A stretch of DNA of 64,000 nt, taken from Corbicula japonica (taxonomy: Eukaryota > Mollusca > Bivalvia > Venerida > Cyrenidae). Under the pieces are notes generated by a model. That model was not told the DNA's origin, made no database searches, and saw nothing but the letters and a program-made list of their open reading frames with translations. A program made the translations under genes and the position numbers. Location of the stretch: the NCBI GenBank assembly GCA_038501625.1, contig JAZAYU010000261.1, positions 651,078 to 715,077 on the forward strand. Reading direction: 5' to 3'. Numbering within the stretch: position 1 is the first letter of the stretch; each line of letters opens with the position of its first letter. Positions 2,542 to 42,219 of this stretch are shown piece by piece.

Positions 2542-2650
2542 ATGAGTAATTGGAGATTACGAAGAGACGCCGTCTTCAAAAAAGGACTGTTTGGAATAAT
2601 ATGTGTGTTCCAAAGTTTAATTCTTGCTGTTCTGCTGATCACGAAAAAGG
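2542..2650 (+). CDS. Variable first exon V1: tail and membrane anchor of a Golgi sulfotransferase
   Basis: The ATG opens 36 codons plus one base, then a donor (g|gtaaat). The peptide starts with a basic tail (MSNWRLRRDAVFKKG) followed by about 19 hydrophobic residues and a terminal KK. That is the charge pattern of a type II signal anchor, with the N-terminus in the cytosol. The phase-1 end joins in frame to the 59-nt exon at 27304, giving a predicted 468-aa protein with the catalytic exon at 40981. Residues FKKGL-x-G-x3-V closely resemble gene B exon 1 (FKKGLRG), which argues for homology and not chance. The ORF is too short to be called alone. No transcript evidence is available. Confidence 0.72.
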
Positions 2651-3604
2651 GTAAATAATTTTGCTTTCAAACCGTGTTTAATATATAATTGTATATAATC
2701 AGTATTTTATTTTACATTGCATGTAGGGATAAACTTCCGGTAAAGTTGTTGTATTACTTGAGGAGCAGACAAGAACACATATACTGAACCGCAAATAATT
2801 ACTCACGAAACTAAATTTTAGCTGTGATATCAATAGTTATCATCGGAAAGTTTTGTAAACCTATTTTTTCTCTTTTAATTTAGAGATACAGGCATATAAT
2901 CTTCCCAACGATAGTCTTTGACAATACTATTCCATTTATAACATGTCCCTTAGAATTGACCCTTAACAGATTTTGGACATAATAGATTCTCAAAAGGTTC
3001 CATAATTGAAAACGTATCGAGCGGTGCTTTGTATGTCCATTTTCAACTTAACGACCCTACTTCTGAGATTTTGTCAGCGGGAAAAGAAGACGTTCAAATA
3101 TATAAACTTTTTTTTACGAGTTTCTTCTGTTTCCTGATTTAAATTGCCTCGCTCCGGTAGAAGTTTCGGGTTAAAAATTGCTTATCTCAATGAGAAATGG
3201 GTTGTTTAGTTTGAAATGGATATATGTCTTAAATTCCGTTATTTGTGCCAGTTTAAATGTTTTAAATCGAATTGAACCCTAGTGGTATGGTATGGTATTG
3301 TGCGTCTAAACAACTTTTTTTCGAAATTCCCTCAGTATTCTTGGATTTTATAGAATCAATCTTACACTAGGCTTATCGCTTGTCTTGTTATTGCATCTTG
3401 TTTAATGACATATATCTATATTGTGTCACCTTGTCTCCGGTTACCCGTGTTTTGGGCTTTGCCGACATTTTGCACGACGATAGTTTTGGTGGCGATGGAT
3501 TTATGATTGTGAGGGTTATTGATGGAAATTTTGAAAAAGAACTTTAGGGTTTTTATTTCTGTAATCAGGTTCTTGGAGATTCAATTTTAGGTTCTTCAGT
3601 CTTA

Positions 3605-3820
3605 GTGAGATCATTGAAAGCACTTCCCATTTTGCTTGACAGTACTATTAGCTACGCTTGCTTTGTGTGTTTCCATGCTTTCACAAGCAAAATTATTGAG
3701 AAGGCTGGATTCGAAGTATAAGGTTTAACCATCCAGGAACGTGGCTTAAAATCCCCGCTGCAAACATATTTTTCATCTGACAGTCCCAAGGCGGTAACCT
3801 CACAGATTCCCAATTTAATC
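3605..3820 (+). repeat. Dispersed repeat R1, degenerate copy
   Basis: It shares the R1 blocks 'tgctattagctgcttatg', 'tatgtttgtgtgcttt' and 'ccaaggcggtaacc'. R2 follows directly. Edges are approximate. Confidence 0.5.
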
Positions 3821-3863
3821 AATCGCAATATTACAACAAGCACTTATCCCAGCAAATATTAAT

Positions 3864-4370
3864 TTGGGTATTCTTCAATCATCCCTGGGATATTCTTCCT
3901 GCTTTTTAAGTTTTGCCTTAAGCGTTATCTGTGATGTTCAGGATCTATATTCTCTGATCTCCTGTCAAAATTCTATTCTGTTCAGTTCCGCCCAGTGTTT
4001 CTCGTTTAGGGAAAACCCATTCATTTATCTTGGGGTCGTATGCCGCTGAATATGGAATATTATTAATTAACTATTTCATATTGGCAATACCCAATAACAA
4101 GGCAAATATGAAATCACTTGATTAATAACATTATAGTATTATTTGAGAATATCGCATTTAAGGATTAATGTTAACCGCCATATGCACATCATCGTTTGGG
4201 TTTGATCAATATTGTACTATTACTTCTGCGCTCAACCCGGGGCTAGGCGGCGAGGGCATTAATATGTTTTTCCATTACTGTCCATGAACAGGCTCGACCG
4301 AACCGAGCCTACTATATTTTCATGTTTGTCGTGTTCGGTTGCTTTCAAAATTTCCGTTTAAACTATGTAT
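3864..4370 (+). repeat. Dispersed repeat R2, near full length
   Basis: R2 blocks run in order: 'attcttcctgctttttaa', 'gttccgccca', 'cgtttagggaaaacccatt', 'gtatgccgctgaatatggaa', 'ccgccatatgcacatcatcg', 'ctcaacccggggctaggcgg' and the palindromic 'aacaggctcgaccgaaccga'. The same order is seen at 12.1-12.65 kb and, inverted, at 49.8-50.4 kb. There is no coding potential. The class is unknown; it may be a non-autonomous DNA element. Confidence 0.65.
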
Positions 4371-11500: not shown

Positions 11501-11884
11501 TGCTTTTATTTTAGTTTGTGTGATTATGTGTTTTGTGTGCATAATTGCGAAAAGGTGGGTAGGTTGGAGTTAAGTTATCGAAACAACTTGGCTTTTTTGA
11601 TGGTCAAATCATACATGTATACTCTATTATTCTGCTCTCTGCTTTTTGTGTGTAGTGGTTATGTAGATGGTGGAAGAGTGGAATTTTCTTTTAAAGAAGC
11701 CGTCTTGCTTATTACACTTTTTATATACCGATTAAACTGTCCTTTTAATAGGGAACAAAAACAGGGGACATCTTTAATACAAATTCGATAAAAAATAAAT
11801 GTCCGACTTGTTTCGTAAGATTCATACTCGTCACTGCAAAAATTGCATTTTATTCAAATTTAAATAATAAAACACTTTTCTCAA

Positions 11885-13907: not shown

Positions 13908-14010
13908 ATGAGATGCTTGTATTTTGTAAAGGAATTGATAAACAGATTCTATGGATTAATAGTTTTCTTTCAAATTGTGGTGCTTGTGACTGTACTGTTT
14001 CAACTTAAAG
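13908..14010 (+). CDS. Variable first exon V2: tail and membrane anchor of a Golgi sulfotransferase
   Basis: This exon has 34 codons plus one base before the donor (g|gtaaac). The peptide begins MRCLYFVKELINRFYG and continues with about 17 hydrophobic residues to a terminal QLK. It is exactly as long as gene B exon 1 (103 nt). It can be aligned to V1, V3 and gene B exon 1 without gaps over the last 19 residues (G, then Q/K six residues later, L four after that, and a basic residue at the end). The phase-1 end fits the exon at 27304; the predicted protein is 466 aa. No clear TATA box is seen. Confidence 0.72.
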
Positions 14011-19610: not shown

Positions 19611-19719
19611 ATGGAATATTGTAGAAGGATCGCTTTTTGTAATATAACAACACGATTTGGCGGAACTTTATTCCTCGTACAGCTGATAGTTCTGGGATGT
19701 CTGTTCTCGTACCTCAGAG
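19611..19719 (+). CDS. Variable first exon V3: tail and membrane anchor of a Golgi sulfotransferase
   Basis: This exon has 36 codons plus one base, then donor g|gtatta (the same donor hexamer as gene B exon 1). The peptide opens MEYCRRIAFCNITTRFGG, followed by a hydrophobic stretch LFLVQLIVLGCLF and a terminal LR. The tail is basic and the segment length suits a Golgi anchor. The Asn-Ile-Thr sequon would be cytosolic and so unused. The phase-1 end joins the 59-nt exon at 27304; the predicted protein is 468 aa. Confidence 0.72.
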
Positions 19720-21690: not shown

Positions 21691-23996
21691 CACGTCTTAC
21701 AATCTTACAAATTTACAATTGGAAAATTGTCTTAGTCCGAAACTTTTGGCTAAAAACGGCTAAGTATTACACAAGATTATTTTCACTTTAAGAATATAAC
21801 ATGTCTTACAATCTTAAAATCTTAAATGCAGGTGATTTGCAGGATATATATTCTCAGATCCCTGGAAAATTTTACAAACATTGCTATTACTTTAGAACTT
21901 CATCATTGATATATTGCTGGTTCTCGCAGATTTTCTTGCTTTTATTTCTTTTGATGATGTCAATTTAAGTGTATGTCATGTTATAATATGGTTTGTTATT
22001 TCAAGATAGATCTTTGTATCCCTAACGTTTGTTCAGTAAATAAAAAACTATTATAATTTTAAAACATGAAACATTATTTCCGTTAACATATAAAACACAC
22101 AGCTACTTTATATAATATGGATATTTTTTCCTTTGAAATTGTAAGAAAATGACGGGTTATTTTGAACATTCTAAGTAATGCATGACAATCGTATTCATTC
22201 TATATAACGAATAGTACAGTACACGGAGTAAGAATAGTCAGATGCCAGTGCACGTGTATGTTTTACTAGCTATCAACAAAAAATGTATTTAAATGAACCT
22301 ACTGTAAAATCCCGCTATTAAGACCTCTTTTGGTCCTGCTAAAAGTGGTCATAATAACGGGACGGTCTCTTTCTAAGGGACAGATTATTCGAGTAGCTCT
22401 TGAGTTCATGATTGATTTTAAAATTATTCATGGGGCATTTATAATTCCGTATTAATCAAGTTCTTTAAAAAGCACATATAATTTATACAGTGAAAAGAAA
22501 TGTGTAAACAATCAACACAAAACACATGAGCAATATTATAAATATTATTTATTTGATTCGAACATTTCGTGCCAAAAATAAATTTAGTTTGTTTTCATTT
22601 ACAATATTGAGATTTCCAATTCCAAATTACCTAATGCTACATGTAAGTTTCGCTGGCATACCGCAAGTTACATAGTTTTGTTGAAAGTGTATATTTATAT
22701 CGTATCTTATTGTAAGTTAAATGATCTGAATTTACAATTCTGCAATCATATAAATATTTCGATGTTTCAATGATAATATTAAAGATTCAATACCAAAGTA
22801 AAACGTAAGTAGCCCGTTTATCATTGGCAAAGCCCAAGCGAAGAGTTAAGAAATATTGTCAAGAAAGTACCGACGAATGCAAACCAAATTGAGCTTTAAC
22901 CTGTAAAACATGTTAACGTGATACCCCTGACCCAAATGTTTGCCCCACATACACATACAATATCACGGATCTGGATTCGGTCTTGGGTCGATACTTAACA
23001 AAAACATTATTTTGAAACGTACAGTAGACAACACAAGCGATTGCATTTCTATGTAAGGGCGATTGTGTAGAATATACTGCAAGCAATGCAAACCAGCATT
23101 TAAAGCGAATGATTTTTTGCGAGAACTTTCAGAACAGTGACATAACAACAATTACTATGGTCATATGATTGCTTTAAATACAAATAGTTCTTCTCGAGTT
23201 TCTGAAATAGTTTCAGAGAAAATTGTTTTAACAAAAAAAAAACCCCGATAAATGCATCAACATACTAACTTATTGTGTTTTTAAACGTCTTCATACGTCG
23301 TGAACTTCATGTTTGACCAGATCTGTTGAGTCAACTGGAACTACACTATATAAATGTTGTCAATGAATACTGACTATTTAAAAGCATCACTTGTCTGCTC
23401 AGTGTACAAATAAACATCGTCTGTTAAAAGTTCTATGATGGTACCGCTGTGAGCATTCATGTTAATAAAACATATTCATCCTATTTTGAGATGCTTAAAC
23501 AAATCATTATTTCTACACGTCATGAATAAAATAATAATTCAGTCTACTAGAAACATTTACATTAATTTCTTTTGCCGGTACACTTCTTCTTCATTTATAA
23601 AAAAAAAATCAAACATCAGCCTTTCCAACTTTTTTGCATGCTTTAAAGTAACAGCAGTGTACAACTAAATTCACAACTGGTTTGACCGACAGTAAATTTA
23701 CTAATCTTTGATTTCCATTGGTCTAGCAGTAAATGCAAGTACGAATACATATGATTATTCTATTAATAAATCTGCTAATGACCGACTAGCTTTTTGGAAA
23801 GCTAAAACTTGAATTGACCTTAGACTTAGTTAATCTCCGAAAATCTGACTTTAAGAAGGGAAGTTATTTGACAATACCACATGGACAACGCCATGCATTA
23901 GAAGCAACAGTTTTGCATGAGATTTCACGCGTAATGGGAAGCAAGTTCGGTATTTTTGTTTTGCATTCATATCTGGCGAAGAAGAGAGATTAAACC

Positions 23997-24078
23997 ATGC
24001 GGATGAGAGATTCCTGGAAATTTCTGCAATATTTTATTGCAAGTGCTTGCATGTTAATAATAGTTTATATGATGAAAG
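23997..24078 (+). CDS. Variable first exon V4: short tail and membrane anchor
   Basis: This exon has 27 codons plus one base, ending at donor g|gtaggt. The peptide MRMRDSWKFLQYF continues into a hydrophobic run (IASACMLIIVYMM) and a terminal K. Two ATGs are in frame (codons 1 and 3); the first is taken. It is shorter than V1-V3 and does not fit their gapless motif, so it is more distant. Phase 1, basic tail, hydrophobic segment and final Lys-Gly junction are shared. The predicted protein with exons 27304 and 40981 is 459 aa. Its existence in two copies helps confirm that it is a real exon. Confidence 0.68.
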
Positions 24079-24596
24079 GTAGGTCTGCTCTTGATTAAAA
24101 CGGCATTTCGAAATTCGGATTAAAATAATATTCAAATAGATTTTAATCGTCAAAAATGTGTTGAATAGAAAAGGGATAAGCGATAAGCATTTTAAAATAA
24201 ATTCAAATTCTATTCCTAAATATAAAAGTATAGAAAGTTGAATATGAATCTTTGATGAAACCTTATTATTTAACTTTACATAACAACTAAAATAGTAGAT
24301 AGCTGTTAAAATTGGGTGGGTGAAATTTTCAAGTAAACGTTAGATTACACCTATGATTGCATTCGTTAAACAATACTTTCATATAATAATAACGGCGACA
24401 AAGACAATTAAAACCTATCGTTTACTATTACGCTTGAACAGCATTATAAGATTTTATCGATTTTATGAGCATGATCATATAAATTTTCCGATTTAACGAC
24501 ATTTGGAGCAACAGATTTACAGGAGATTTCACGCATAATGGAAAGTTCGCTGTATTTGTTTTGTATTCATATCTGGCGAGGAAGAGGGATTAAATT

Positions 24597-24678
24597 ATGC
24601 GGATGAGATATTCCTGGAAATTTCTGCAATGTTTCATTGCAAGTGCTTGTATGTTAATAATAGTTTATATTATGAAAG
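24597..24678 (+). CDS. Variable first exon V5: duplicate of V4
   Basis: It is the same length as V4, with start, phase and donor (g|gtaggt) kept. The encoded 27 residues differ from V4 at three positions: Asp5 to Tyr, Tyr12 to Cys, and Met25 to Ile. Only two further silent changes occur. The frame and splice site have survived while amino acids changed. It lies 2.6 kb before exon 2 and is the nearest first exon. The intron just downstream carries an antisense R1. The predicted protein is 459 aa. Confidence 0.68.
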
Positions 24679-24856
24679 GTAGGTCCGCTTTCGATTAAAA
24701 TATTGGCATTTTAATAATCGGTATAAAATAACAATAAAAAAGAATTAAATAAAAAGAAAACAACAACAAAATTTTGAATAGAAAGGAATAAGCGATAAGC
24801 ATTTTAGTATGAATTTAAATTGGATTACTAAAGATAAAAGTATAGAAAGTAGAATA

Positions 24857-25110
24857 TGCATATCAGAAATCTCCACACTCACAAAACACAGCCTCCCCAC
24901 GCAGCGAAAAAGAAGAGAGGAAGACAGAGAGAGAGAGAGAGAGCATGTTTGATATAAGTGTGTCAATTCAAATAGGACGCCACACACAATTAACAAAAAA
25001 GAGAACCGCCTTGGAACGGTCTGTGGCAAAACAAATTGCCACTGGGGGGTTTAAACCAGGTTCTAGGGTTCACCAACCTCACACTTGCCCCGACAGGGTC
25101 TCATATTAAC
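24857..25110 (-). repeat. Dispersed repeat R1 inserted in the duplicated unit
   Basis: Reverse R1 blocks are seen: 'acacagcctccccacgcagc', a GA-rich run, 'accgccttggaacggtctgt', 'ccaggttctagggttcacca' and 'cttgccccgacagggtctca'. Sequence homologous to unit 1 resumes on the far side ('taatatgaa', 'aaacct'), so R1 landed after the 600-bp duplication formed. Confidence 0.7.
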
Positions 25111-26926: not shown

Positions 26927-26927
26927 G

Positions 26928-26981
<54 letters not shown>

Positions 26982-27303: not shown

Positions 27304-27362
27304 ACTCAGTGCCGTACTATGATAAGCTGTCTTTCGAAAATTCAAGCTTGGCCGAGGATTCG
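27304..27362 (+). CDS. Gene A exon 2: constant stem-region exon (59 nt)
   Basis: The acceptor 'ttattttattttcag' precedes 59 nt and the donor 'gtaagt' follows. With the single G left by each first exon it encodes 20 residues (DSVPYYDKLSFENSSLAEDS) and ends in phase 0, matching the catalytic exon at 40981. The gene B counterpart at 52212 is also 59 nt, has the same phases and shares Tyr5, Lys8, Ser10, Ser14, Ala17 and Ser20 plus several acidic positions. It would form the start of the lumenal stem after the anchor. No other copy was found between 2.5 and 40 kb. Confidence 0.75.
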
Positions 27363-29599
27363 GTAAGTTTCAAAAATTTATCATACTTTTCGAAAGTCGG
27401 CCGCCTCTAATTGATTGAGCTTCTCCATGTTAGGTTTTACTCTGACACCAAAAACTTCCGTTATGTGTTATCCAGGCAATATTTGCAAATCGGCCAGGGA
27501 AAACTTTTACTTCTTCGAATTCATAAACGCGACGTCATTTGCTATAACGATACAAGATTATAAGAGATTATGAGGGGAAAAAACAATTCTATATATCATA
27601 TACTTACAGGTTCACACCTAGCTGTTAGCATCTTAAACTGGCCCAAAAATAACCATGAATGTTAGAGAATACTTGTCAGTTTGGTATGAAATCAATGTGC
27701 AATCGGTTTATTCGTTTCATTTAGATCTTTTCATGAACTATATAATTATACTTACAAACACTATTTTTATGTATTGTGGTTAACGTCATAATTTATGACA
27801 CCAAGGACTGCACTACTGACAGGAAAATAAATACAAAATGAAAAAAAAAACAAAAACAAACAACAACAACAACAATAAAATGACAAAAAGTCTTGTAGAG
27901 ATGACCAACATGCAATGAATTCTTTTATTGTTAAACTATTATAAATCCATCTTTGGAATAAACAATTATTCAGTTGTATTCAGTATTTCATCTGATATGC
28001 ATATTGACATTAAATTTGGAGTTTCAGATGTTTTATTTGGTTTATTATTGAGAATCATGCGCAATTACTTTGCTTTTGCAAAGAAATGTTACCAAAGTAT
28101 AGTTTGAATGAAAACATTACAATCGTAAAACTACATTTTGGTTAGTTGTACAAGAGTTGCTGTATCAAATGCAGATACAAATTTGTATAAAAATGATGAC
28201 TCGCATGATTTAGTTTCTACAAATCGTGATAATTTTTGGTCCAGGCAAACTTCCTTATCATACTGAATGGAACACGATATTAAAATGTCACAACATGATA
28301 ACAGTAATCAAGATCCTGACTGCAGTTGTCACACACCTATCTACCATTTTCGTTTTTATACAATCATATCGTCAACAATCTACACTGTACATGTACAAAG
28401 CTTAACTCAAATACTAAGTGCGTGGAAAGCTGTGGAAAGCTGTTTTGATGGTATCAATCTTAAAATGGAATAGCTGAATCTTTATTCTAACCAAAACATA
28501 TTCAAATTCGAATAATGTCACCCGTTTATTTGATCATCCGGATGATAAAAAGGATTATAATAATAGGAGTCACTTAAATCCTGAGTACGCGGCGGCGTGT
28601 CTTTTTGCCAAATGAATAATGTCTCCACTAATTATAATTCGAATTTGTGGAAAAATTGTTGGAAAAGGTAGTGTTTCAGTATCATTAAAAAGCAATTGTC
28701 TTTACATGATTATCCAACTGTCCATCCAACACAAGCAAACAGAAAGACTACCTGCTTACAACGGGGCTAAGTACTGCATCTTGATTAGCGGGACAGATCC
28801 AAACCATGTTATAAAAAATACATCGCCGAGTATTCGAATACACGAATAGTAAACCATCGTGTCACAACGTGGAGCTCTATTCCCAAGGAGGTACAAGCAC
28901 ATCAAATACATCTTCCATTGTAGTTTCTTGCGTTGTATTTGTAGACGTGCACCGAATACAGCTCTACGGGCATCTGTATTCAAAGGAAAGTAAACTGGGA
29001 ATTGTAAATTAGGAAGAATCTTTATACGGTACATGATGTAAACAATTCATATATATTATTGTCAATGTATTATTCTTTTCATGGTCATGCTTAGCTTTTC
29101 CTGTGCATGCAGTTCTTTAAGGTAATTAAATCCCTCACCCAAACAGCCACCTAGAAGATTAATAGAGATATATATTTATAATAAGACTTAATTAAAAGTA
29201 ATGACACCGAAAACAACAACAACAAAAAAAGCTCAAAATGAGAATCTGAGAGATGTTGGGAAACTGCCTTGGAACAGTAAGTAACAAAACATTACTGTCA
29301 CCAGGGATTACGTTTATGCACAAATCCAGCCAAGTAACATATTTTAACATATTAAGAGCAACAAGAATGTGCAATATTTTACAATTAAAGTAATTGATAT
29401 CAAAACATGAACAAACTTTTCAAAGTCCTGCTTTGAATTAAATGCATTTGTTGTATCTGCGATATTCTTCAGATATTTCATATACCCAGTAAATGCAATT
29501 TATTAGGAAACTACACCTTAATTGGTCACTTTTGCCTTAAGTTATATTACAAACCTACTCTTATAAAAACCTTATAAATCTTTAAATCTTTAAATCTTA

Positions 29600-29815
29600 T
29601 TTAAACCCCCAGTGGCAATTTGTTTTGCCACTGACCGTTCCAAGGCGGTATCCCCAAAGGTTCTCTTGTTTATTAATTGTTTGTGGCGTCCTATTTGAAT
29701 TGACATACATATATAAAACATGCGCTCTCTCTATCTTCCTCTCTTCTTTTTCGCTGCGTGGGGAGGCTGTGTTTTTTGAGTGTGGAGATTCCTGATATGC
29801 ATATGTAGCTTTTTT
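29600..29815 (+). repeat. Dispersed repeat R1, well-preserved 3' half
   Basis: It is one of the cleaner copies: 'cccccagtggcaatttgttt', 'tgccactgaccgttccaagg', 'gctgcgtggggaggctgtgt' and 'cctgatatgcatat'. A reverse R1 scrap ('gccttggaacagtaagt') lies at about 29.27 kb. Confidence 0.65.
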
Positions 29816-32800
29816 ATTCAATTGTTCTGTTTTAATAGGATTACTCATGAGTAAAAAGGTGTAAATCCTTATTGATTAACAACATTTTTTTGTTTTTACA
29901 AAATCGATTTAAAGCATCAAATTTTATTATAAACTCCTTTTCGATTTAAGAATGTTCTAACTTTGAGCCTGCGGTGTAAATAAATATTATTCGACTGATT
30001 TAAGAAAATAATTAAAAATAAGATAAAAAATACATTCAATTTGAATAATTGATTTCAAGACAAAGGACGTCATTTCAAACTCTCTCTACACATAGGAAAG
30101 AAACGAAACTATCATACATTGTAAACATATACACTTGATGACCAATTACAACATTGTAGACCTAAGTGCAATAAATACTCCGGTGTGCAATTTACCATTT
30201 GGAAAGGAAACCACAGGGATAATGCTTCTACTGGGAGTACTTTAGTTTTGTTGAACATCCGTGCATCCATTTCCATAAAAACCTTTTAACAAATTAATTC
30301 GCTTAACACATCTGATTTGATCTAACCATGGTCATATTAATTCCATACTGACTTTTCCTTGCTACAAAAGTATTGTTTGCCCTGAAACAGTCTATTTTAT
30401 GAAGAAATTACATTTAGAGGGCGCCTTAACATACCCGTGAGACACTGAAAGGGATATCATGCTTTCCAACCATTTAACTGAAAATGGAAAAGTGTATCCA
30501 TAATAACAGAAACATCAAATGATATCGAAAACGTTGAAATAAATCATTCATTAAAGAGACAATTTTCACATCAGAGGAAAATCAAACGAAATAACTTATC
30601 TTAAAAACCACCAAAGCTAACCATACAGATTTCCATATAAATTGGCATAATTATTAAATTCTCCCTCTGGCCTTTCATCTTTTGTTGTCGTCGTCCATTG
30701 TCTTTTGGAATTCGGAAATTATTAAGCTGGTCTCCTGGTTTGTTAAGTGTCATGCTTGATATGTATAACATAAATTATTACAAATAATAATTGTGTTGAG
30801 ATATTTAAAGTTGAACATAGTTAGGTTATTCTAAAATGCGATTTCCAGGAGCGGGGATAAGTGCTGTTCGTAATAAATGAAAACCGATGTTTTCATAATC
30901 TGTTTAGCCTAGCAAAAATGCTTCGCAGTATCTTTAACAGGTTAATAGGGTTATATTTAATATTTCTTGTGATTCGATTACTACGATACCTAGCCGGCAC
31001 TTGATATTAATCACCATCGTTTCAACTGAATATGGGGAATCTCAAAGTTCGTGTTAATTTTAAACACAAAAAACATTTGAAAGGGTATCATTCAGAGAGG
31101 TCACATATGGCGATTTTGCTCACGATTTGTTTTTGTTTTGCAATCAAATACGCTAAGCGTAGAGTTTTGAGTGTGTTCTCTAATTGTTAGTAAAAGCATA
31201 GGGCATTATTAACTTTGCTATTATGAGTGTATGCAGCTTCGCATTTAGTTTTCCGTTGTTGTAACTATACATAAATACTGATCCAAAATGAAAATTTGAC
31301 AGAAATAACATGTGCAATTCTTTTGCCAATATGCTTATCTAAAAAAGTCATTTCAGTTTCTATCGATTTAAGAAAAGAAAAAAGCGTTGGATTGTGTTCT
31401 TTCTTTAATTCAGAGGGGGGATATTTGCCGGAACGGATATTAATGTAACTGTAGCTTATTTCTTTGCAACAGTGGACTTAAAAGATGTTGTTTTCCTTCT
31501 ATACATGTCATACACTTCTAAATATAATCGTGAAATACTCTGTTTAAGACTTTTGTTTTAAAAAATGATCGATATTGTCATTATTTACGAAATATTAGAT
31601 GACCTTCACCATCTTCCAGCTTTATCAAATGTCCAGATAATATTATGTGCAAATACCACAAATGAAATGAATGATAAAATAAAGCACCACTGAACACAAT
31701 TTTTAATTTTTGAAAACTGGTAAGTTTTCATTTTGCTCAGTATAATATTATAACAAAACAAGAAAGTTGTCAATTTAGCTGTCAAACATCGATTACAAAA
31801 TCGTCATCAATGCTTCATCTCCGCAAAGTGCAAGTGGATATTCTAGTGTATATGTACATGCTATCTGAAGTTTTTATGCTTTCTTTAACGAACACCAAAA
31901 TTCACCTCGCGTTAAGTTCGCTGAGAAGTTTATATTTCACACTTTGTTCATCTTTTTCTTTTAGTTAGTACTATTCGGAAAAATAATGAATTTCTGATTT
32001 TTAAAGAACAAATAAACCCCGTTTGACAAGTCGGATTGTGTATGAGGCATTCAAGTTACTGGTCTTTCAAAATAAGTAATCAAAGGACTGGAGGTACTGA
32101 TGGGTCGGCCATCAAAACACAATTGAAAAGCAATGGATTTTTGGATTTGATTAAGTTGGACCAGAAATAAACTTTCGTCTCAAGAACGGGGAACAATTTA
32201 TTTTATGTCCTCTGAGACACAGATCTTCGACCCCAAAAACAATTAATGTCCAATTAACAAGTCAAGACAAATATTGTTATCAAGTTTGCAGACGTGGTGA
32301 CATGGAAAGCGAACCTGGTGGTAGGACAATATGTCTAAAGACATAATTAGAATTTGATTGGACTTGTAGACGATAATATGAAATTGACCAATCAAAATTA
32401 AGTGAAGGATATCATACTTCATATATCATATGGTCAACAGTGAAACAAAGCTGGTCAAAGTACTCACACAACGCTTTATTTAAAGGTATTACTCCTTTCG
32501 GTCTTGCATTTTGCATTTAGACTGACTTTTTAATTTTTCATTTTATCAATGAGAGTGTAATGACAAATGGAATATTACCTTAATGGCGTGAATACTTTTG
32601 TAAAGTTTGGAAGAATCCTGTGAGCAGTTGTTTGCAAGCGCAGTATCATTAGACAGCACCTAAAATTCTGAGTTGAGATACGGTGACACCAATGACAGAA
32701 AAAAGTAGCTAAGCTAGTCATAATCTTTGAATATTCAAACTTGAAATCGACAAATAGAATTGGGTAACATGATTTAAAATAATACTACAAGTGACACTAT

Positions 32801-33262
32801 GTTTTTTTTTCAATGGTTCTTTCATTCAGCAAATAATGTTCAAACACACAATTACACTGATGCTTTTTTGTCAACTGATGTTTTTTCAATGAGGTGCACA
32901 TTAAAACGTTTTGGTTATATTTTATATAAATTGTCTCCATTTCACATCCACTATTTGTATCGACATTTGTGATTTTTTTTATTCTTGTCCATTACAAAAG
33001 CAGCATGCTCCATTGCAGGAATTAGTGGCAATTTAAAGGCTGTATGCTCCCTCAGACAGTCATAGACAGAATTGTCAAACTGGTCTCCTCACAGCATTCC
33101 ATGTAAAGCTGTTATCCTGAAATATTAATTTTAACAAATAACCTATTTATATTGAAGTTGTAATGATTTTAGCTGAAGTGTCTTTGTTTTCCTTAAGTTA
33201 AGGGTAATTTTGGTTATTAATTGCCAGAATCCACCAAAAAGTTACACTAGATGGGTGCTCAC

Positions 33263-33672
33263 TTGTGTCGCCCTGGGAACTAGATCAGGTTAAAAATGCA
33301 AGAACAAGAAAGGGAATAACCCCATCTTGACATAAAGAACTTGGAGTCATGATGAGTGTGTTGTCATGAGCAATATAATTTGAAAGTTTGATGTAGAAAC
33401 ATTAAGAAAAGGCAAAGTTATAGTCAACATTAAGTTTTTCTGTTAAAATAAAAGTACAAAAAGGGATTAACTCCATCAAATGTGACCTTGACCTGAAAAT
33501 TAACATCAGCTCAAGCATGTTGTTACAAACAATATAATTTGAAAATTTCATGAAGAAATATTAAGAAATGGCAAAGTTATAACCAACATTAATTTTTTGG
33601 GACAGATGGACAGATGGACGGACAGACAAAGTGATCCCTATGTATTGCCTTTTCTTCGAAAGGGCGACACAA
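33263..33672. mobile_element. Short non-autonomous element with 12-bp inverted ends
   Basis: The left end TTGTGTCGCCCT is exactly complementary to the right end AGGGCGACACAA. Inside, a block of roughly 160-170 bp ('caatataatttgaaa' ... 'ggcaaagttata') is present twice. The right side has 'gacagatggacagatggacg' steps. No target duplication is evident. Confidence 0.5.
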
Positions 33673-33739
33673 AAATGACCCTTTTGATTCAGCAGCTTGT
33701 GGACACCTGGAAAACAATAGATCAGTATCAGCAAGAACA

Positions 33740-36210
33740 ACTTTGGTGTCTGATCTGGATCTGATTGGAATCTACACTGTTTGCATATTTGTAAGAAATA
33801 GCCTCATGAAGCTTATTATGAACCGTGTAGATCCTGTTAAGACTGCACAGATATGCCTGCTGATCCGGATATACACTGGTCACTCATGTCATGTATTCAT
33901 GGAAGAAAGGGGCAAAAACAACACAGTAACTTTTATATAGGATGATTAATTTTCTTGTGAACTGAGGTCTCACAAGTCAACACATACATACAAACACAAT
34001 TTTATGTTTTCTTGTTACAAGATACAAAAATACAAATACCGACATATACAGATATATTTAGTGTGTCTCTATCATACATTCATGCAGCTTTATTAAAGAA
34101 AATAAAAAAATGCAAACCGTGTCTTCATTTTCTACAGTAACATTCACATTCTGCTCCCTAATGTTCTACCAATTCTGCAGACATTTCAAGTCCACAGCTT
34201 TCACTAAACTGATGATACACATGGCTGAAAATAAATGTTGTATTTTAAATCAAAACAAATAACCCAAATCAAGTTCACTGTACTTTTTGTTACTTATTAA
34301 GTTGTACATAAATTGATGTTGCAGGTTAACAGTTAACAGATTACACTGTTGTCATAATTCATTTTAAGGTAATTTTTTTTATAAATATCACACAAGCGGT
34401 TTTTTCTGATGTAGGCTTCATGCCATCTTCAATTCCTATAGGCTCATACACAATTTATCCCATTTAACCTTTTCCTCCATGTATATGCCTTTATGGCATG
34501 GGTGATCAGTGTAAATGTAGATCTACACTAGTCAAAAGTTCTAAGTGCACACTTGATAAATGTTAATTTTTCCAATAACTTGATTGAATCTTTCAAAATA
34601 GTGTAAATTACAATGAAGAAGAATCAATATTCTATTAAAGCACACCAAAAATTTTAAGTCTGCTTCACCAGATTAAAAAATAATAATATTTTAGCTCACT
34701 TGTTCTCAGAAAGCAATTCTCAAGTTAATTATCATTGCATCGGCTAACATTTGTGATCGTTTTCTCATCTCTGTATAATTTAAATTTCATGCAGATTTAA
34801 AGGAAATACTGTAGTTTGCCATTCCATTGCACTGAAATAGCTTTCTGTAGCTTTGTAATGGTCTGCTGGGCACGATGAGTCAACACACTCAACTTTATTT
34901 TATCCATTACGTTTTTACAGGATTTCAAGGAGAAAATTCCATTTTTCACACAATGTTTTGTGCCAAAAGCTTTTGAATTGTCTAGCAGTTTGGGATGATA
35001 CAATTTTCTATGATAGATGTGTAACAGCCTTTCCAAACGAAAAAAATGTATTCATTTCGATAAAATTGACCAGTTTTCGGATACGCCTTTTGACCGAATA
35101 AGCGTCATTTTCGAATAATTCGATTTTGAATTTTATTGAATTTCTATAAATTTTAGTTTTAAATTTTTATTTATTGGACACTTATCCAACAAATAATAAA
35201 CTAATTTTTTCGATTTTACGTTGTTTTACGTAAATATTTAATGACGTAATTGAGTAACATCAGCGTTCAACGTAAGCAACGTAATCAATCTAGAAAATAA
35301 TATCGTTTGATTTTATTCTTAAATTAATAAAATATGCAAAAATAAGGTATTTCTTTTGCATTTACGAAAACCGTCAAGATTTTTTTACAACAAATTTGAA
35401 GTTGTGCCTGTGAAAAGAATTTTGACGGCAATGTCGTTGTCTGCTGACGTCAACCGTTCCATGGTTACAATTTGTTGGTGTGTTTTTCGTGTTTGTCTTG
35501 AGTCGGTGAACATGTGAAAAACAAAAACGATTGTAAAAAAATAAATTTCGCTTGCCGCACGGGGATAATGCATAAAAAACGTATGCCGACGTGGATGTCG
35601 TAAAACGTAAAACATATGCACGGTTTTCAAAAAATTATTGTTGTTTGATCATTATTAACATTAAGTCAAACTTTCATTCAATTTGAATAAGTTTACTTTA
35701 AGATATTCAAAATTGAAAAGTGTGCACTTGGAACTTTTGACCAGTGTAGATCAGCCGACACATCCATAATGCCTGATTAGGATCTAAACTGTTAGCCTTT
35801 TTATTCAATAGGTTATTTCTGACCACAATGTGACCAGTGCAGATCCAGATCAGATCTGCCATCTGATCTGGATCTCTACACTGGTTGCAAAGTCATGAAA
35901 ATGTGTATATATGTAGTAAAGGGTTAATTATTACAAAAAACACACCTGCATTTTTATACTTCATTTCACTCGATGGATACACCTTTTAACACATGAGCAA
36001 CTATTGTAGATCTAGATGCTGACACATCTCCTTCCAGTTTAAAAGAGCTTTAAATGTATCTAATGAACAGAGTAGATACAGATCAGACCACAAAATGTCT
36101 GATGTGCCAGCTGGTCTGGAGCTACATCTGTGCTATCTCTATCTGATGTGGATTTACACTGGTTGCCCATGTGGTAAAATGGCGTGTAAATGGAGTAAAG
36201 GGTCAAGTTA
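33740..36210. repeat. Scattered copies of a 'ctgatctggatct...acactgg' repeat
   Basis: Related segments occur near 33743, 33855, 35843 and 36100 ('tctgatctggatctctacac', 'tggttgc', 'catgtcatgtatt'). They look like pieces of one old repeat split by the 34.5-35.75 kb element. Confidence 0.4.
34520..35752. mobile_element. 1.2-kb element with about 35-bp terminal inverted repeats
   Basis: The left end 'gatctacactagtcaaaagt' then 'tctaagtgcacactt' pairs with the right end 'aagtgtgcacttggaacttt' then 'tgaccagtgtagatc', with two mismatches. No transposase ORF is evident; the minus-strand frames inside (79 and 81 codons) show no known domain. The target duplication is not clear. This is probably a non-autonomous DNA transposon. 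Confidence 0.55.
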
Positions 36211-36365
36211 TTAACCATGAAAGTGGAAACAGCATTGGATTTTTGAGACACATTCATATGAGATTAACCTACGTAATAAACGAATAAGCAACCACAAGAA
36301 CCCATCGTGTTAGTTCAAGGTGGCCCACAGATGAATATTATTAAATATAATGTTAATAATCAAGT

Positions 36366-36476
36366 GAATTCAAGTTGACCTTGTTATTGGGTCAAGGGTA
36401 GTCATATATGCCTGAGGCAGAAGGCCGAGGGTAAATATGACAGCCCGTGGCCCAATAACATGGTCAAATTCATATG
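36366..36476. repeat. Fold-back repeat with 'attgggtcaa' arms
   Basis: Two arms of about 42 bp ('gaccttgttattgggtcaag' versus 'tggcccaataacatggtc') flank a loop reading 'gcctgaggcagaaggccgag'. The following 'actgggccaatacagg' repeats resemble those at 56.48-56.56 kb. Confidence 0.55.
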
Positions 36477-39223
36477 AAGACTAAACTGGGCCAATACAGG
36501 TGTTCTGGACCAATATTAGAATTTCTGGGCCATTATAAAATACTTAAGTATTGATGTGGTGTACCATGTAGTGTCTGCCAGGAAAATGGCATGTTCAGGT
36601 CAGGTGATGACATGCCTCGAGATTTTGCTACACTGCAGTCATGTAAAAAAAGGGCAAAGTATGCAATGCCTGTACTGTATATTAATACAGTGCTCTCACT
36701 AGAGAGAGACTTGAAGGAAGTAGTCTCATCAAAAGTGACCAGACTTCTCTCTTCGTTGAGCTTTGTGAGAAGTCATTTTGTATTTAAGATATAGGGAAAG
36801 AAAGCTGTTGACTGCAAACTTCTCCATAATGCAGTAAATTATGACAAAACTTCTCCCTGATTTGCAAGTCTGGTGAGAGCCCTGTTAATAGTCAAATAAT
36901 AAAATTTAATATACCATTAGCCTTCTTCCTCTCCTCTTCCAATTTCATGCTTTTTGAACCAGAGATGGCACATTTCTTTCATTTGATTTTATCACTGAAA
37001 TAATTACAAACACAAAATTGCAAGGGTGCAAGTTAGGAATTCTGAAAAACCTGAAATCCTGAAAATTTATTTAGGGAAAATGAAGAAAATCAATCATTTT
37101 TTAGACACACAAAAACCTGATTTTCAGGCAAACACACCCATGAAATTATAACAATTATTTTGATCTTTGCTCAAATTACAAATATTCTTTATAATAACTT
37201 ATTTTATTTTTTAAGTGAGTGATCATAACAATTAGTTTACTCTCATTTTGTACTTTGCTAGTCTGAGGTGTGAGGTGTATCTACAAAAAGTCACGCACAA
37301 TCTTTTGGACTGTGAAAAATGTTCTTCCTGTAGTTTCTGTGAAAAAGAGTGCTGTCATTTGTTTTGTAGTTAATATGCCTGTTCTAACAGCCATTCAAGA
37401 AAATTTCATAAAGTTATATTGATTAACTGTTGATTAACTGGATTAAGTATCCATATTGTTTCATCACTGCCAGAGAAGTTATTATGTGTTTCCTTCTTTA
37501 GAAAAAAAAATATGGATCCATCATCCAGGCATGTCACTTTAAAATTAACCAGAAAGTATCAGACTGCAAAAAGTCAAAAATGTGTTCAATGCTCTTATGA
37601 ACTGGTCAAATTGGGTTGTCACTAAAATTCACAAAGTGGGTTCCTTTCCAAATAACTACCGGTAATTTATTTTACATTGCTGATCAGAATTCAAGTCTGG
37701 GTAAAAATCATAGAATGAAATAGACAAAATTAATGTCTGAAGTAGTTTTGGTTTATTTTACCTTAAAACAATTTGTATTGGAAAGCTTATGAATACTTGT
37801 TACATCAAAATTATTGATCTGAAACACTGTGTAAACCCAGGTTCACTTCAATACTTAATACTGGTGTAACATCAAAAGGGAGATAATATATTCATTTTTA
37901 TAATTTGGCACATGTTTAGAGGGAACAAATATATTTTTGGTTTTCATTTCATAATTTATTGTTACTTTGTTAGGCAATTCTACTATTAACAAGACTTAGT
38001 TTAACACTATGAAACTAATTTGAGTTATTTATCAAATTACAGGAACCTGAATTTCCATCAGAAAATATTCTGATAGGAAAAAATATTTCCCAATGCAACG
38101 GATTTGTACCCCACCCACTAACATGTTACAAGAATTTACCAGTTGCAATGTTGACAGCGTTATCGCAGCTCAAGCATTACAAAGCATTAACAAAGAAACT
38201 AAAATATACGTTTTACAATAATTACATTTTCTTAACTGTCATTCTGGATTTAACTCAAACATTATTTTCTACCTTCACTTTTGTTGTCCACTTCATTGCA
38301 TGACGTCAAACAGTTCTCTACCTCTTCAAATGGGGGTATTATGTCAAATTTGGTTGATACAGGTCTGACCAGAACCAAAGATCATCTAATCCTGTTTATG
38401 AATAATTAAATCAATTAATAAATACTTGATTCTTTCTATAAGGATGCTAAATTCACCTGAAATGAATTTAAGAGATACTATTAAATAAATATTGTGAAGT
38501 TCCCATTTCTGTATAACTTTGGTGAATCCCTGAGGTGCTACTCTTTTTCTTCTTATGGTTTTCCCTGGGTTATTAATTTTGAGAATATCTGTTCTGATAA
38601 AATGACCTGTGAGACATATGAAATGGAGTGTAAGGCAAAATTGAAAGTAGGAAAAACTTCTGATAGCGGATTTCATAAGGTCTACATATAATGCGCAATT
38701 ATTGAAAACATTAGATTTTCATTTCTTTGAAATTCTATACTTCAGAAAATCCCGTGTCAACTATGTAGCTGGTAACGGTTTGGGAATGGGTTATATCGGA
38801 AAATGTCATTCATTTCAGATCTGGATATTTTCTGATGCACATTCAGGTTCTTGTGATCAAATGCATAAAATGCATTTATTAATATATCTGTTAAATCAAT
38901 TCATGTATGAATTTTAACTTAATTTAAACATAATTTTCAACAAATCTAAATGTATTAAAAAAATAAATCATTGTGAATCAGATGCTTAATGTTTTACTTT
39001 CAAGCATTCACACGAGTGACGATATTTAACCAAGTAATTCGTTAATCGTTCAAAATCCGACTTCTTTCAATGCAATACATTGAAATTATTTGATTACTTA
39101 CATCTCTACAAGGTTCCACAATAAATATCCACAATGATTAGGGCCCTAAATTAAAAAAGTTTCGGTTAGTCCTACGGTCGATTTTGAGACTCCTACTTTC
39201 ATTTTGGAGAGTGCATTAATTAA

Positions 39224-39534
39224 CATTCTCTCACCAGAGGGCGTGCTACACGCTTACACCTCTGTCAACGCCGGGAAAAGTAGTTCTCATACACGTGATA
39301 TTCTATATATATTCTATAAAATAGTTCCCCGAAAATTTGGGTTAAAATATATCTTAAACATTGTTCTAAAAAAAATAAAAATACCCATTTTCATTTTAAG
39401 TAAAATATACAGAGATCAAAATAATCTCACGAGCATTTTATTCATTATTTATATTTTGTACAAGAATCTTGTACATCGGGCGTTGACAGAGGTGTAAGCG
39501 AAACTTGTGTAGCACGCCCTCTGGTGAGAGAATG
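39224..39534. mobile_element. MITE with about 55-bp TIRs and a 10-bp target duplication (Mutator-like)
   Basis: The termini 'cattctctcaccagagggcg' and 'cgccctctggtgagagaatg' are perfect inverses, and pairing continues through 'gcttacacctctgtcaacgc' apart from a 9-10 bp indel. The direct repeat CATTAATTAA flanks it at 39214-39223 and 39535-39544. A 311-bp element with 9-11 bp duplications is typical of Mutator-superfamily MITEs. No coding capacity. Confidence 0.75.
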
Positions 39535-40224
39535 CATTAATTAAATGACGTAACGTTCAATAAAACCCAAAGAGCCAAAATCACGTTTACTGCGGTGTAG
39601 TCTTTCGAATCTAAAATTTCAAGTTTTACAATGATTTTGAAACGTACCATTCGAAAACCACCAAATCAACCTCCCGTTCCATATGAATAATTCTATTTTC
39701 AGAGAGAACTGCTATTGTCAATATACATTCAAATGTAACTTGGGTGTTATAAAAGCATTGCATCACGAAAATAACTCGATAAATACTCACTGTTCAGTTG
39801 ATTACGATGGATTTTTCGTCTTCACCGAACGTTGTCGAATCCAATATGGCGTTCCGCCATCAGGTATTCATGCGCGTTCATGACTCAAAATCCACGAGTT
39901 AAATTTCTTCAAATATTGATTGATTCCATATTTTTTAATATAAATTTTATCGTTTTCACAGAATTACAAAATTGACCGCTTTGTAGCATTGACTGACTTT
40001 TTGAAACTAAGAACTATATTCAGGGGAAGCAAGCATATACTCTATGGTAGCAAGCAAGTACTGTCGTTACTACATTGAAATAAAGAAGGAGTTAGGGCAG
40101 TATTGCATGCAACCCTCAAATTGATAGGTTCATAGTAAGGCAAAAACAATTGTCGAAAATTGGTTTTTACTGGGTCTGCCGACCCAATAACGGCATTGTG
40201 GTCGCCTTATCTACCTATTTATAG

Positions 40225-40870
40225 ATTGCCAAAAAATGAAATATGCATATCAGGAATAGCCACACTCAGAAAACACAGCCTTCCCACGCAACGAAAAAGA
40301 GGAGGGAGAGGGAAAGAGAGCATGTGTAACAATATTAATTTCAAATAAGGCATCACAAGCAATACACAAAAAGAGAACGATTATGGTTACCGCCTTGGAA
40401 CGGTCAGTGGCAAAACAATATTCCACTGGGGGTTTAAGCCAGGTTCTAAGATGCAACAACCTCTCACTTGCCCTAACAGGTTCTCATATCAACAAACAAG
40501 TACAAGTTGTCTTGGTGAATAACTCCACCCCAACCATCAGCTTAACAATGTTGCACGCAAAAGCTCACAAACATAAAATTTATGTAAGAACAGATGCAAA
40601 GGGAACTTTGAAAGTCATGGAACAAGACAAATATGAAAATATTGCAGGCTCGGTTTGCTCGAGCCTGTTCATGGACAATTATAATGGAAATTCATATTAC
40701 TGCCCACGCCGCCTAGCTTCGGGTTGCCCGCAACTCAATATTTACACCAATAAACAGTACAATTTTGACCATCCCAAACGATGGTGTGCATATGGCTTAT
40801 AGCATTGCAAAGAGAAAGGGGCGAGTACTCAATGATCTTACCGAGACCAGAGCCCCTGGAGTTAAATTAG
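40225..40870 (-). repeat. Dispersed repeat R1 split by a nested R2
   Basis: Reverse R1 runs from 'gaaatatgcatatcaggaat' to 'aaagctcacaaacataaaat' (about 40590), then resumes at about 40801 with 'agcattgcaaag' and 'atgatcttaccgagaccaga'. It ends about 110 bp before the catalytic exon, so it occupies the end of intron 2. Confidence 0.7.
40600..40800 (-). repeat. Dispersed repeat R2 nested in R1
   Basis: Reverse R2 blocks: 'gggaactttgaaagtcatgg', 'gcaggctcggtttgctcgag', 'tgcccacgccgcctagcttc' and 'caaacgatggtgtgcatatg'. The R1 sequence on both sides is continuous, so R2 moved after R1. Confidence 0.65.
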
Positions 40871-40980
40871 CAAGAAGTTTGTTTCTGTATTTTACTATCT
40901 ACATTAAACTTGTTCAATGTACATCCGACGAAATCCACATTTCTCAGAATAAGATATATTTTCAGTGTTTTCTATTTCAG

Positions 40981-42219
40981 TTACAAAATAGTCTTCTGCG
41001 TTCAGAGGAGAGATTGATTCTGAAATTAAAACGAGACGAGAGTAGACTGCAAACTTCAACACAACAATATAATTCCAAAATAGGCATAAGACAATCTGCA
41101 AAACCATCTGTGGCAAACAGTTTATATACTGAAAAATACAAAAAGCAAAATATATTAATGGAAAACCGTTTGTCAAATATAAGAAATAAATGTCTGGGTT
41201 TAATAAATGACCAATATTGGCAGAATATGAGACAAGGAGGGAGAGTCTGGACGTACAAACCTTTAGACCTTCACTACTGTATGGTTCCGAAGGTAGGATG
41301 TACGTTCTGGAAGAGGATCATGCGTTATCTGGCTCAGGATTATCCTTTAAATCAGAAAATTGAGCGGCCCTCCGATATAAACCGAATCTTTGTTCACTAT
41401 GGCGGGCTAAAGAATTTGACGGAGAACAGGGTAGATAACCCTATTGCCCGGATGATGATGATGAGCGGTAAAGCATTTATGTTTTCACGGGATCCATATT
41501 CAAGGCTTTGGTCAGCATATATTGATAAATTCTTGCTTCCAGACTTTTGGAGAACTGATGCACGCGCCGTAATAAAGAGACTAAGACCAAACTTTAATGC
41601 AACTGATAAAAACAGTTGTGCAAATAACGTAACATTCCATGAGTTTTTAATGTTTATCAATTTCACCTCAAAATTTGGTTTAAATGAACATTGGGATAAA
41701 GTTCACAAGATCTGCAGTCCTTGCCATGTTAAATATGATGTGATAGGCACGCAAGAAACGTTTTCCGATGACGCAGATTATATTCTGACAAAGTTCGGGC
41801 TTGACTACCTGAAGGAAAATACCACTAAACTTGATATGGTTCGTGAGGAAATAACGTCTTTAACAAATTATAATTTTGACCTTGAACCCTATATACAAAA
41901 GATCTGCTTTGACAAAATGGACATTGCAAGACGCATTTGGCTTGCCTTTCAGTACAATGGCTACATTCATAGAAACGCTAGCTTTCCTGAAAGCGAATTT
42001 CAAACTGAAGATTTTCTCAAAGAACCAAAAAAAATCTTTTTAAATGTCGTGTTTGAAACTATTGAACGCCAGAAAGATTTGGGGTATACACTAAAGTCAC
42101 AGAAAAGAACAATGATGTTAGAGGCATACAGGTCTATTCCACGAGATTTAATGACTGATATAGCGAAGGTTTATGAATACGACTTTGAACTGTTTGGATA
42201 TGAAAGAAATATTTTATGA
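40981..42219 (+). CDS. Gene A terminal exon: carbohydrate sulfotransferase catalytic domain
   Basis: It encodes a lumenal enzyme that should transfer sulfate from PAPS to a glycan acceptor in the Golgi (Sulfotransfer_2 / HNK-1ST, CHST8-14 superfamily). The exon follows the acceptor 'ttttctatttcag', starts in phase 0 (LQNSLLRSEERL) and gives 412 residues plus stop. The 5'-phosphosulfate site is PKVGCTFWKR at exon residues 103-112, and the 3'-phosphate site is SRDPYSRLWSAY from about residue 169. Later family landmarks are CHVKYDVIGTQETF and the C-terminal VYEYDFELFGY. A charged stem precedes the domain. Six or more Asn-X-Ser/Thr sequons fit a lumenal location. The open frame extends upstream to 40765, but that part is R1/R2 sequence and intron. 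The acceptor glycan cannot be told from sequence. It is roughly 70% identical by eye to gene B over the catalytic part. Confidence 0.9.
   Translation, partial: LQNSLLRSEERLILKLKRDESRLQTSTQQYNSKIGIRQSAKPSVANSLYTEKYKKQNILMENRLSNIRNKCLGLINDQYWQNMRQGGRVWTYKPLDLHYCMVPKVGCTFWKRIMRYLAQDYPLNQKIERPSDINRIFVHYGGLKNLTENRVDNPIARMMMMSGKAFMFSRDPYSRLWSAYIDKFLLPDFWRTDARAVIKRLRPNFNATDKNSCANNVTFHEFLMFINFTSKFGLNEHWDKVHKICSPCHVKYDVIGTQETFSDDADYILTKFGLDYLKENTTKLDMVREEITSLTNYNFDLEPYIQKICFDKMDIARRIWLAFQYNGYIHRNASFPESEFQTEDFLKEPKKIFLNVVFETIERQKDLGYTLKSQKRTMMLEAYRSIPRDLMTDIAKVYEYDFELFGYERNIL

Follow-up and report, generated by a model that had tools for sequence, protein, structure and literature searches.

A sulfotransferase locus of Corbicula japonica with five candidate alternative membrane-anchor exons

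A variable first exon is very probable for one sulfotransferase gene of Corbicula japonica (gene A), judging from the matching phases of its exons, the recurrence of its plan in paralogues, the homologous classes formed by its anchor exons, and the lack of other catalytic exons nearby except that of its neighbor, gene B. Both genes lie in a 64,000-nt stretch of contig JAZAYU010000261.1 (the window). The favored reading, with a probability of roughly two in three, is a single Golgi carbohydrate sulfotransferase gene in which several first exons would be joined through a 59-nt exon to one catalytic exon. The features concerned are:

2542..2650, + strand: alternative first exon a1, class I; peptide MSNWRLRRDAVFKKGLFGIICVFQSLILAVLLITKK plus one G; donor GTAAAT; A at -3
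13908..14010, + strand: alternative first exon a2, class I; peptide MRCLYFVKELINRFYGLIVFFQIVVLVTVLFQLK plus one G; donor GTAAAC
19611..19719, + strand: alternative first exon a3, class I; peptide MEYCRRIAFCNITTRFGGTLFLVQLIVLGCLFSYLR plus one G; donor GTATTA
23896..24861, + strand: tandem duplication behind a4 and a5; aligned copies 23896-24249 and 24500-24861; direct repeats D10, D19
23997..24078, + strand: alternative first exon a4, class II; peptide MRMRDSWKFLQYFIASACMLIIVYMMK plus one G; donor GTAGGT
24597..24678, + strand: alternative first exon a5, class II; peptide MRMRYSWKFLQCFIASACMLIIVYIMK plus one G; donor GTAGGT
27304..27362, + strand: common middle exon of gene A; 59 nt; phase 1 in, 0 out; (D)SVPYYDKLSFENSSLAEDS
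40981..42219, + strand: common catalytic exon of gene A; 412 aa plus stop; Sulfotransfer_2 (PF03567), Pfam E 2.1e-36
51273..51375, + strand: gene B anchor exon, class I; peptide MTVTRGHISFKKGLRGVLCVIKIMILIIMVFILK plus one G; donor GTATTA
52212..52270, + strand: gene B middle exon; 59 nt; (E)WITYHEKKSIKRSCFADES
53026..54231, + strand: gene B catalytic exon; 401 aa plus stop; PF03567; 68-69% identical to that of gene A

The open frames from the ATG in a1 to a5 are 36, 34, 36, 27, and 27 codons long, and all finish with a codon plus one G immediately 5' of a GT. The middle exon of gene A is flanked by AG and GT, while the catalytic exon has TTTCAG directly 5' of its start and a TGA at its end. 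Joined to the 59 nt and the catalytic exon, each anchor gives one continuous frame (5/5), which is lost if the 59-nt exon is skipped. The coordinates, GT/AG borders, and frames of the original prediction, which had placed five anchors with matching phases upstream of a 59-nt exon and a single catalytic exon, were all verified. There is an in-frame stop 5' of every anchor, with no in-frame ATG between it and the anchor start, and A occupies position -3 at all five ATGs (background 0.345). The a3 donor has the lowest score of the five. In a scan of 24680-40900 for an acceptor, an open phase-matched exon, and a donor, 27304-27362 ranked first. At the level of sequence, the exon layout of gene A is well supported: as would be expected of a variable-first-exon gene, several first exons are phase-compatible with one common downstream exon, and they are related by duplication (a4 and a5 in tandem; a1 with a2, and a2 with a3, by homology).

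The catalytic exons of the two genes match PF03567 at 126.8 and 125.3 bits (curated cut-off 22), with the best stretch at residues 96-291 of the gene A common exon. PKVGCTFWKR and SRDPYSRLWSAYIDKF, seen by eye in the catalytic frame, are taken here to be the 5'-PSB and 3'-PB PAPS-binding motifs. No sequence match was found among solved structures at E ≤ 10, nor in NCBIfam at E ≤ 1. The predicted proteins have the form of type II membrane enzymes, with a short basic tail, one span, and a lumenal enzyme. The original prediction confined variation to the tail and membrane segment, and this agrees with the exons, the variable ones supplying 27-36 residues and the common one PF03567. The top match among the collected proteins shares 70% identity across 77% of the query. 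Clams (Mercenaria, Ruditapes, Mya) supply the nearest named proteins, of which P0002 of Mercenaria is the closest (57% identity over 95%); by eye it has the same anchor-D-stem plan. It is named “isoform X3,” and its 90% identity cluster holds three sequences, which would be consistent with isoforms distinguished by a segment of about 36 of the 469 residues. With a composite of the anchors a1, a2, a3, and a5 as the query, none of 249 candidates was a relative at E ≤ 10. In shuffling comparisons with external anchors, only a3 with P0002 (0.0007) and a1 with P0007 (0.0005) fell below p 0.001; as 70 comparisons were made, with boundaries set by eye, these likenesses are suggestive only.

By homology the anchors divide into two classes, one comprising a1, a2, a3, and the anchors of genes B and C, the other a4, a5, and the anchor of gene A' (genes A' and C are paralogues on contigs C198 and C3, respectively). 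In register-fixed shuffles (2000 per pair, floor p 0.0005), 9 of 10 class I pairs reached p < 0.01 and all three class II pairs p ≤ 0.001. The a1 anchor is homologous to those of genes B and C (p 0.0005 each, the floor), a2 to a1, a3, and both of these, a3 to a2 and both of these, and a4 to the A' anchor; a1 and a3 did not reach p < 0.02. Likeness between the classes is weak (a2 with a4, p 0.0085). The anchors are present as originally predicted, with two amendments to that prediction: there are two classes, and a4/a5 is a recent duplicate pair. From its alignment this pair is a tandem duplicate with the exon conserved above the flanks (77/82 positions identical in the exon, 219/267 in the aligned flanks; Fisher p 0.005). 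Assembly-wide, the 401 bp around a2 match one place only. For 8 of the 28 anchor pairs, including a1-aC, a2-aC, a2-a3, a4-A', and a5-A' (aB and aC are the gene B and C anchors), synonymous differences exceed non-synonymous ones (p < 0.05), while many within-class Ka/Ks tests were not significant (a1-a2, 0.13; a1-aB, 0.23; a2-aB, 0.72; a4-a5, 0.21). Membrane-span composition accounts for part of the conservation at second codon positions in the anchors.

The three-exon plan recurs in gene B, as originally predicted, and extends to A' and, less surely, to C. The middle exons of A' and B are 59 nt long; that of C is a 95-nt candidate and less certain, and that of B came second in its acceptor/donor scan, below a 74-nt candidate (51825-51898). 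Within the stretches examined, B, A', and C have one homologous anchor each, so having several anchors is not general in the family; for A', the stretch covers only 12.7 kb 5' of the middle exon. When a1, the middle exon, a2, a3, a5, and aB were combined into one query against the assembly, the seven known window exons were recovered, together with the middle exon of A' and two matches at chance level. Since the existing A' and C anchors escaped this search, it rules out close copies only.

The possibility that the anchors are chance hydrophobic frames in AT-rich DNA was addressed by counting comparable frames in the window, 100 kb upstream, 30 kb of C3, and 50 kb of C198, with cut-offs (hydropathy ≥ 1.9, donor score ≥ 3.0) chosen when the claimed exons were already known. 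The + strand of the window in phase 1 has seven candidates: the five claimed, that of gene B, and one at 47766. The remaining 23 strand/phase sets have 35 in 1398 kb-phase, so that about 0.68 would be expected in the 27.3 kb 5' of the gene A middle exon, where five were found (Poisson 0.0007), or four with a4 and a5 counted as one (Poisson 0.005). Four candidates within 27.3 kb are also reached somewhere in two of the 23 other sets, namely phase 1 of the upstream minus strand and phase 0 of the C198 minus strand. Given this, and cut-offs set with the exons in view, the counting is moderate evidence against chance; homology to the paralogue anchors is the stronger argument. In the upstream set, several of the candidates are overlapping frames. 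Candidates at 1868-1958, 11600-11669, and 31032-31170, and one for gene C (C3:3292210-3292327), were dropped for low hydropathy (1.69-1.81). The candidate at 47766-47862 was kept out of the anchor set; since it passes both cut-offs, it might be a second anchor of gene B.

If the anchors are real, they might still be the remains of a tandem gene array, left by separate genes whose catalytic exons have since been lost. The family does occur in pairs (A with B; A' with a pseudogene on C198), and the decayed catalytic exon of that pseudogene is readily detected. Yet the matches listed for the catalytic exon of gene A and for the middle exon include no further middle or catalytic exon between the anchors; after gene B, the next-best + strand match to the former has an E of 0.31, at 40166. 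Nor is there any catalytic exon besides those of genes A and B in the window, whose right end is the contig end, or in the 100 kb upstream (which include 500 N), so the case in which each first exon has its own catalytic exon gains no support. The a4/a5 duplication is moreover exon-sized rather than gene-sized. Separate genes with lost partners were accordingly set aside as the main reading, and array remains appear very improbable.

A less easily dismissed alternative, though still an unlikely one, is that just one or two first exons are live, mainly a4/a5 or a1, and that the rest were silenced recently enough to look intact. The a4/a5 pair is nearest to the middle exon and shares its class with A', whose 12.7 kb contain no anchor but a class II one; the single homologous anchors of B and C and the low score of the a3 donor point the same way. 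Neutral relics would also last better on short branches, 17-19% of them staying intact at a branch length of 0.1 with indels. At 0.2-0.4, however, only 1-5% survive each with indels (5-18% with substitutions alone), and a1, a2, and a3, with 42-55% nucleotide identity to one another, have all retained an ATG, an open frame, a phase-1 donor, and a basic tail. Above the dead catalytic copy on C198 there is no intact anchor candidate, which also speaks against this alternative, although the copy could have arisen by partial duplication without ever having had an anchor.

Two variants of the favored reading keep all of the anchors in use. They could be mutually exclusive cassette exons behind a shared 5' untranslated exon, which is compatible with that reading. 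Acceptor-like sites at -90 of a2 and -177 of a3 would suit such an arrangement, but by the same rule the 300 nt 5' of a1, a4, a5, and the gene B anchor contain none, and the arrangement is judged improbable. TATA-like words as well as acceptor-like sites are seen at first exons, but in DNA this AT-rich they fit with or without separate promoters. A cassette arrangement would alter the mechanism of choice and leave the protein outcome unchanged. The other variant, a serious possibility somewhat short of even odds, is that the anchors leave location unaffected and their promoters give different expression patterns only. Expression patterning is a usual role of alternative first exons, and the anchors have diverged greatly in their letters while keeping their hydrophobicity. 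Against this, tail and span lengths differ between classes I and II and tail charge differs among anchors, and in human cells such tails decide GOLPH3-dependent retention (according to parts of PMC8421267).

Several known systems resemble gene A in part. In UGT1A and the clustered protocadherins, an array of variable first exons lies 5' of common exons, and the variable exon carries the recognition domain. In gene A it carries 27-36 residues of tail and span instead, so that the address would vary and the enzyme stay constant. The Drosophila pipe gene, a single sulfotransferase locus with many isoforms, is the mirror image, its catalytic end varying and its N-terminus being kept. The vertebrate CHST8-14/HNK-1 sulfotransferases share the Sulfotransfer_2 domain, and annotated relatives bear names such as CHST8-, 9-, 10-, 11-, 13-, or 14-like, but all named matches above 50% identity are clam proteins. 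GCNT2, the I-branching enzyme, is like gene A a Golgi glycan enzyme with several coding first exons on common exons, but its first exon also encodes part of the catalytic region, whereas those of gene A encode tail and membrane span only, and there are five of them. Passages of PMC5147899 describe three GCNT2 coding first exons (1A, 1B, 1C) joined to common exons 2-3. B4GALNT2, another Golgi enzyme, has two first exons (1S, 1L) that alter the cytoplasmic tail, the long form acquiring a post-Golgi vesicle location (passages of PMC9959560); its membrane span is identical in both, while in gene A tail and span are swapped together. With these two precedents, the novelty originally proposed for variable N-terminal anchors was overstated as to kind. 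A limited literature search, covering parts of sources and few subscription journals, returned no sulfotransferase with alternative membrane anchors among the matches listed, and five interchangeable anchors of this type on one sulfotransferase look new within it.

Under the favored reading of gene A as a variable-first-exon gene, each coding first exon, probably with its own promoter, would be spliced via the obligatory 59-nt stem exon to the single catalytic exon, and all five would be used in mRNA. Every isoform would then be a type II membrane protein, presumably of the Golgi, with a constant lumenal enzyme and a different cytoplasmic tail and membrane span; the likeliest effect would be cell- or stage-specific expression combined with graded Golgi retention. 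The tails of a1 to a5 are 8-15 residues long with net charges, including the N-terminal amine, of +5, +3, +3, +3, and +4, and the uncharged spans are 20, 20, 20, 18, and 18 residues. In human cells, GOLPH3 generally binds short basic tails robustly only at a net charge of at least 4, and acidic residues interfere (parts of PMC8421267). By this rule, GOLPH3 would be predicted to retain a1 and a5 better than a2, a3, and a4.

The placement of Golgi enzymes by tail and span has often been examined with engineered chimaeras, and gene A, if its anchors vary while the enzyme is constant, would be a natural set of these. It could then be asked directly whether shifting one sulfotransferase along the stack alters the glycans made, and whether cells make use of the shift. 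Exon duplication would here be acting on subcellular address instead of recognition. A tentative extension, more doubtful than not, sees the locus as an evolving array of Golgi addresses, with exon duplication and turnover feeding new tail-plus-span cassettes to a constant sulfotransferase, so that, depending on the cell, the same reaction could take place at any of several stages of glycan assembly. The a4/a5 pair would then be a freshly made pair of addresses; their tails differ by the sole acidic residue of the tail (net +3 in a4, +4 in a5).

The exon coordinates originally predicted for gene A, a sulfotransferase gene with five candidate alternative first exons (a1-a5), each encoding an anchor made up of a cytoplasmic tail and a membrane span, were all correct when the sequence was re-read. 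They are as follows.

Positions 2542-2650, 13908-14010, 19611-19719, 23997-24078 and 24597-24678: anchor exons a1 to a5
Positions 27304-27362: middle exon of 59 nt, between AG and GT, entered in phase 1 and left in phase 0
Positions 40981-42219: catalytic exon, with a reading frame open up to its stop

Each anchor exon starts with an ATG, runs for 36, 34, 36, 27 or 27 codons (a1 to a5, respectively), and ends in a single additional G before a GT donor. The reading frame is complete when any single anchor is followed by the 59-nt exon and then the catalytic exon; joining an anchor straight to the catalytic exon would break it, which makes the 59-nt exon obligatory. An in-frame stop lies upstream of every anchor, all five ATGs have A at -3 (window background 0.345), and a scan of the interval from a5 to the catalytic exon for internal exons ranks 27304-27362 first.

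Chance occurrence of anchor-like frames was estimated with cut-offs (hydropathy at least 1.9, donor score at least 3.0) chosen with the claimed exons already seen. Seven candidates pass in the window's plus-strand phase 1, and 35 in a total of 1398 kb-phase across the 23 remaining strand/phase sets scanned. In the 27.3 kb upstream of the middle exon, 0.68 would be expected and five were found (Poisson 0.0007, or 0.005 for four), and four within one stretch of that length were also reached by two of the 23 other sets. Part of this background came from hydrophobic minus-strand frames ~6.4 kb before the window, which by eye resemble part of a seven-span receptor.

The best named relatives are clam proteins. 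The assembly (1.07 Gb, 1630 contigs; the window is C261:651078-715077 and reaches the end of that contig) has 70 matches to PF03567, a large sulfotransferase expansion, with several grouped on single contigs (C144, C52, C15, C1) and some containing stops. With the catalytic exon of A as query, the close clade consists of A itself, A' (85%), B (69%), C (66%), and a pseudogene (73%); the place ranked next has 36% identity.

Gene B, window: anchor aB 51273-51375; 59-nt middle exon 52212-52270; catalytic exon from 53026
A', contig C198, minus strand: anchor, 59-nt exon and catalytic exon
Gene C, contig C3: anchor aC 3297861-3297963; middle exon, a 95-nt best candidate; catalytic exon 3304651-3305871
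Pseudogene, contig C198, 908151-909288: dead catalytic exon copy with stops

In the internal-exon scan, the 59-nt exon of B ranks second, not first as in gene A. A, B, A', and C all have anchors in phase 1 and catalytic exons in phase 0. Several homologous anchors are found in gene A only, within the sequence covered, which extended 12.7 kb above the A' middle exon, to the contig end, and ~28.6 kb above the C catalytic exon. Between A and B, a candidate frame at 47766-47862 passes both cut-offs and is a putative second anchor for B.

Anchor homology was assessed by shuffling tail and span separately, with the exon end held in register. Class I (a1, a2, a3, aB, aC) gave p<0.01 in nine of ten pairs, the exception being a1-a3, and class II (a4, a5, A' anchor) p<=0.001 in all three. 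Over all tests, 22 of 91 pairs among 14 anchors fell below 0.02, including a few cross-class ones (e.g., a5-aB, 0.0025). In all five class I anchors of the assembly, the residue 13 positions from the exon end is polar (Q, Q, Q, K, K). A tandem duplication spanning a few hundred bases gave rise to exons a4 and a5; they are identical at 77 of 82 positions, versus 219 of 267 in the aligned flanks (Fisher 0.005).

Between A and A', Ks is 0.48 (Ka 0.09) for the catalytic exon and 0.50 for the middle exon. The A' anchor, however, differs from a4 or a5 at 80-82% of synonymous sites, over ~14 sites only, so it is no plain orthologue of either. Either several class II anchors predate the separation of A from A', or new anchors take the place of old ones, with the enzyme part preserved or homogenised. 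The pattern, over few sites, is compatible with an exon array undergoing turnover. Synonymous change exceeded non-synonymous at nominal p<0.05 in eight of 28 anchor pairs: a1-aC, a2-aC, a2-a3, a4-A', a5-A', and three cross-class pairs with doubtful alignment. The excess was not significant in the remaining within-class pairs. Were such exons decaying neutrally, with 0.1 indels for every substitution, 1-5% would be expected to look intact at branch lengths of 0.2-0.4, rising to 17-19% at a length of 0.1; if substitutions were the only changes, the figure would be 5-18% at 0.2-0.4.

In P0002, a Mercenaria protein with 57% identity over 95%, a 36-residue anchor at the N-terminus is followed by D and then a short stem, a plan that by eye matches that of gene A. 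The protein carries the label isoform X3, and three sequences make up its 90%-identity cluster, as alternative first exons would predict if these three are its isoforms.

Alternative first exons are described for two Golgi enzymes, GCNT2 (PMC5147899) and B4GALNT2 (PMC9959560). Gene A, as read from sequence, would resemble each in carrying such exons on a Golgi-type enzyme gene, but would differ from both in their larger number and in exchanging whole anchors and nothing else. A limited literature search found no sulfotransferase with exchange of whole anchors alone. Tail net charges, including the N-terminal amine, are +5, +3, +3, +3 and +4 for a1-a5, and uncharged spans are 20, 20, 20, 18 and 18 residues; differences between a4 and a5 include the tail's only acidic residue, among others. 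In human cells, short basic tails are recognised by GOLPH3 and GOLPH3L; robust in vitro binding generally needs a net charge of at least 4, and acidic residues interfere (PMC8421267). By analogy with this rule, different anchors may, in a clam too, give one sulfotransferase different Golgi addresses through tail charge and GOLPH3-type recognition, an idea that the differences between the tails make testable.

No further catalytic exon besides that of B was found in the window or the preceding 100 kb. A composite anchor query against the assembly turned up no other close copy of a1-a5; the query did not recover the A' and C anchors and is therefore insensitive to diverged copies. The C198 pseudogene shares ~90% identity with the A' catalytic exon and the adjoining end of the last A' intron; the ~24 kb above it has neither a match to the middle exon nor a plus-strand phase-1 anchor candidate, and it may be a partial duplicate. 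At C198:930803-930865, a marginal a2-like peptide containing a stop (E 0.13) may be a decayed anchor. An array of ~65-nt repeats (C198:939500-944600) lies in the intron that follows the A' middle exon, and its translation has a recurring short motif similar to that exon's end.

The A-B pair lies near a contig end (C261:715077), as does the A'-pseudogene pair (C198:957446), so the two may be pieces of a single tandem array; window positions 54223-64000 showed no match to the C198 end. At the C261 end, the minus strand of 57000-64000 has frames of 1159 and 542 aa that resemble LTR-retrotransposon gag-pol and integrase. Matching short peptides ~6.8 kb apart lie at 57100-57201 and 63873-63974.
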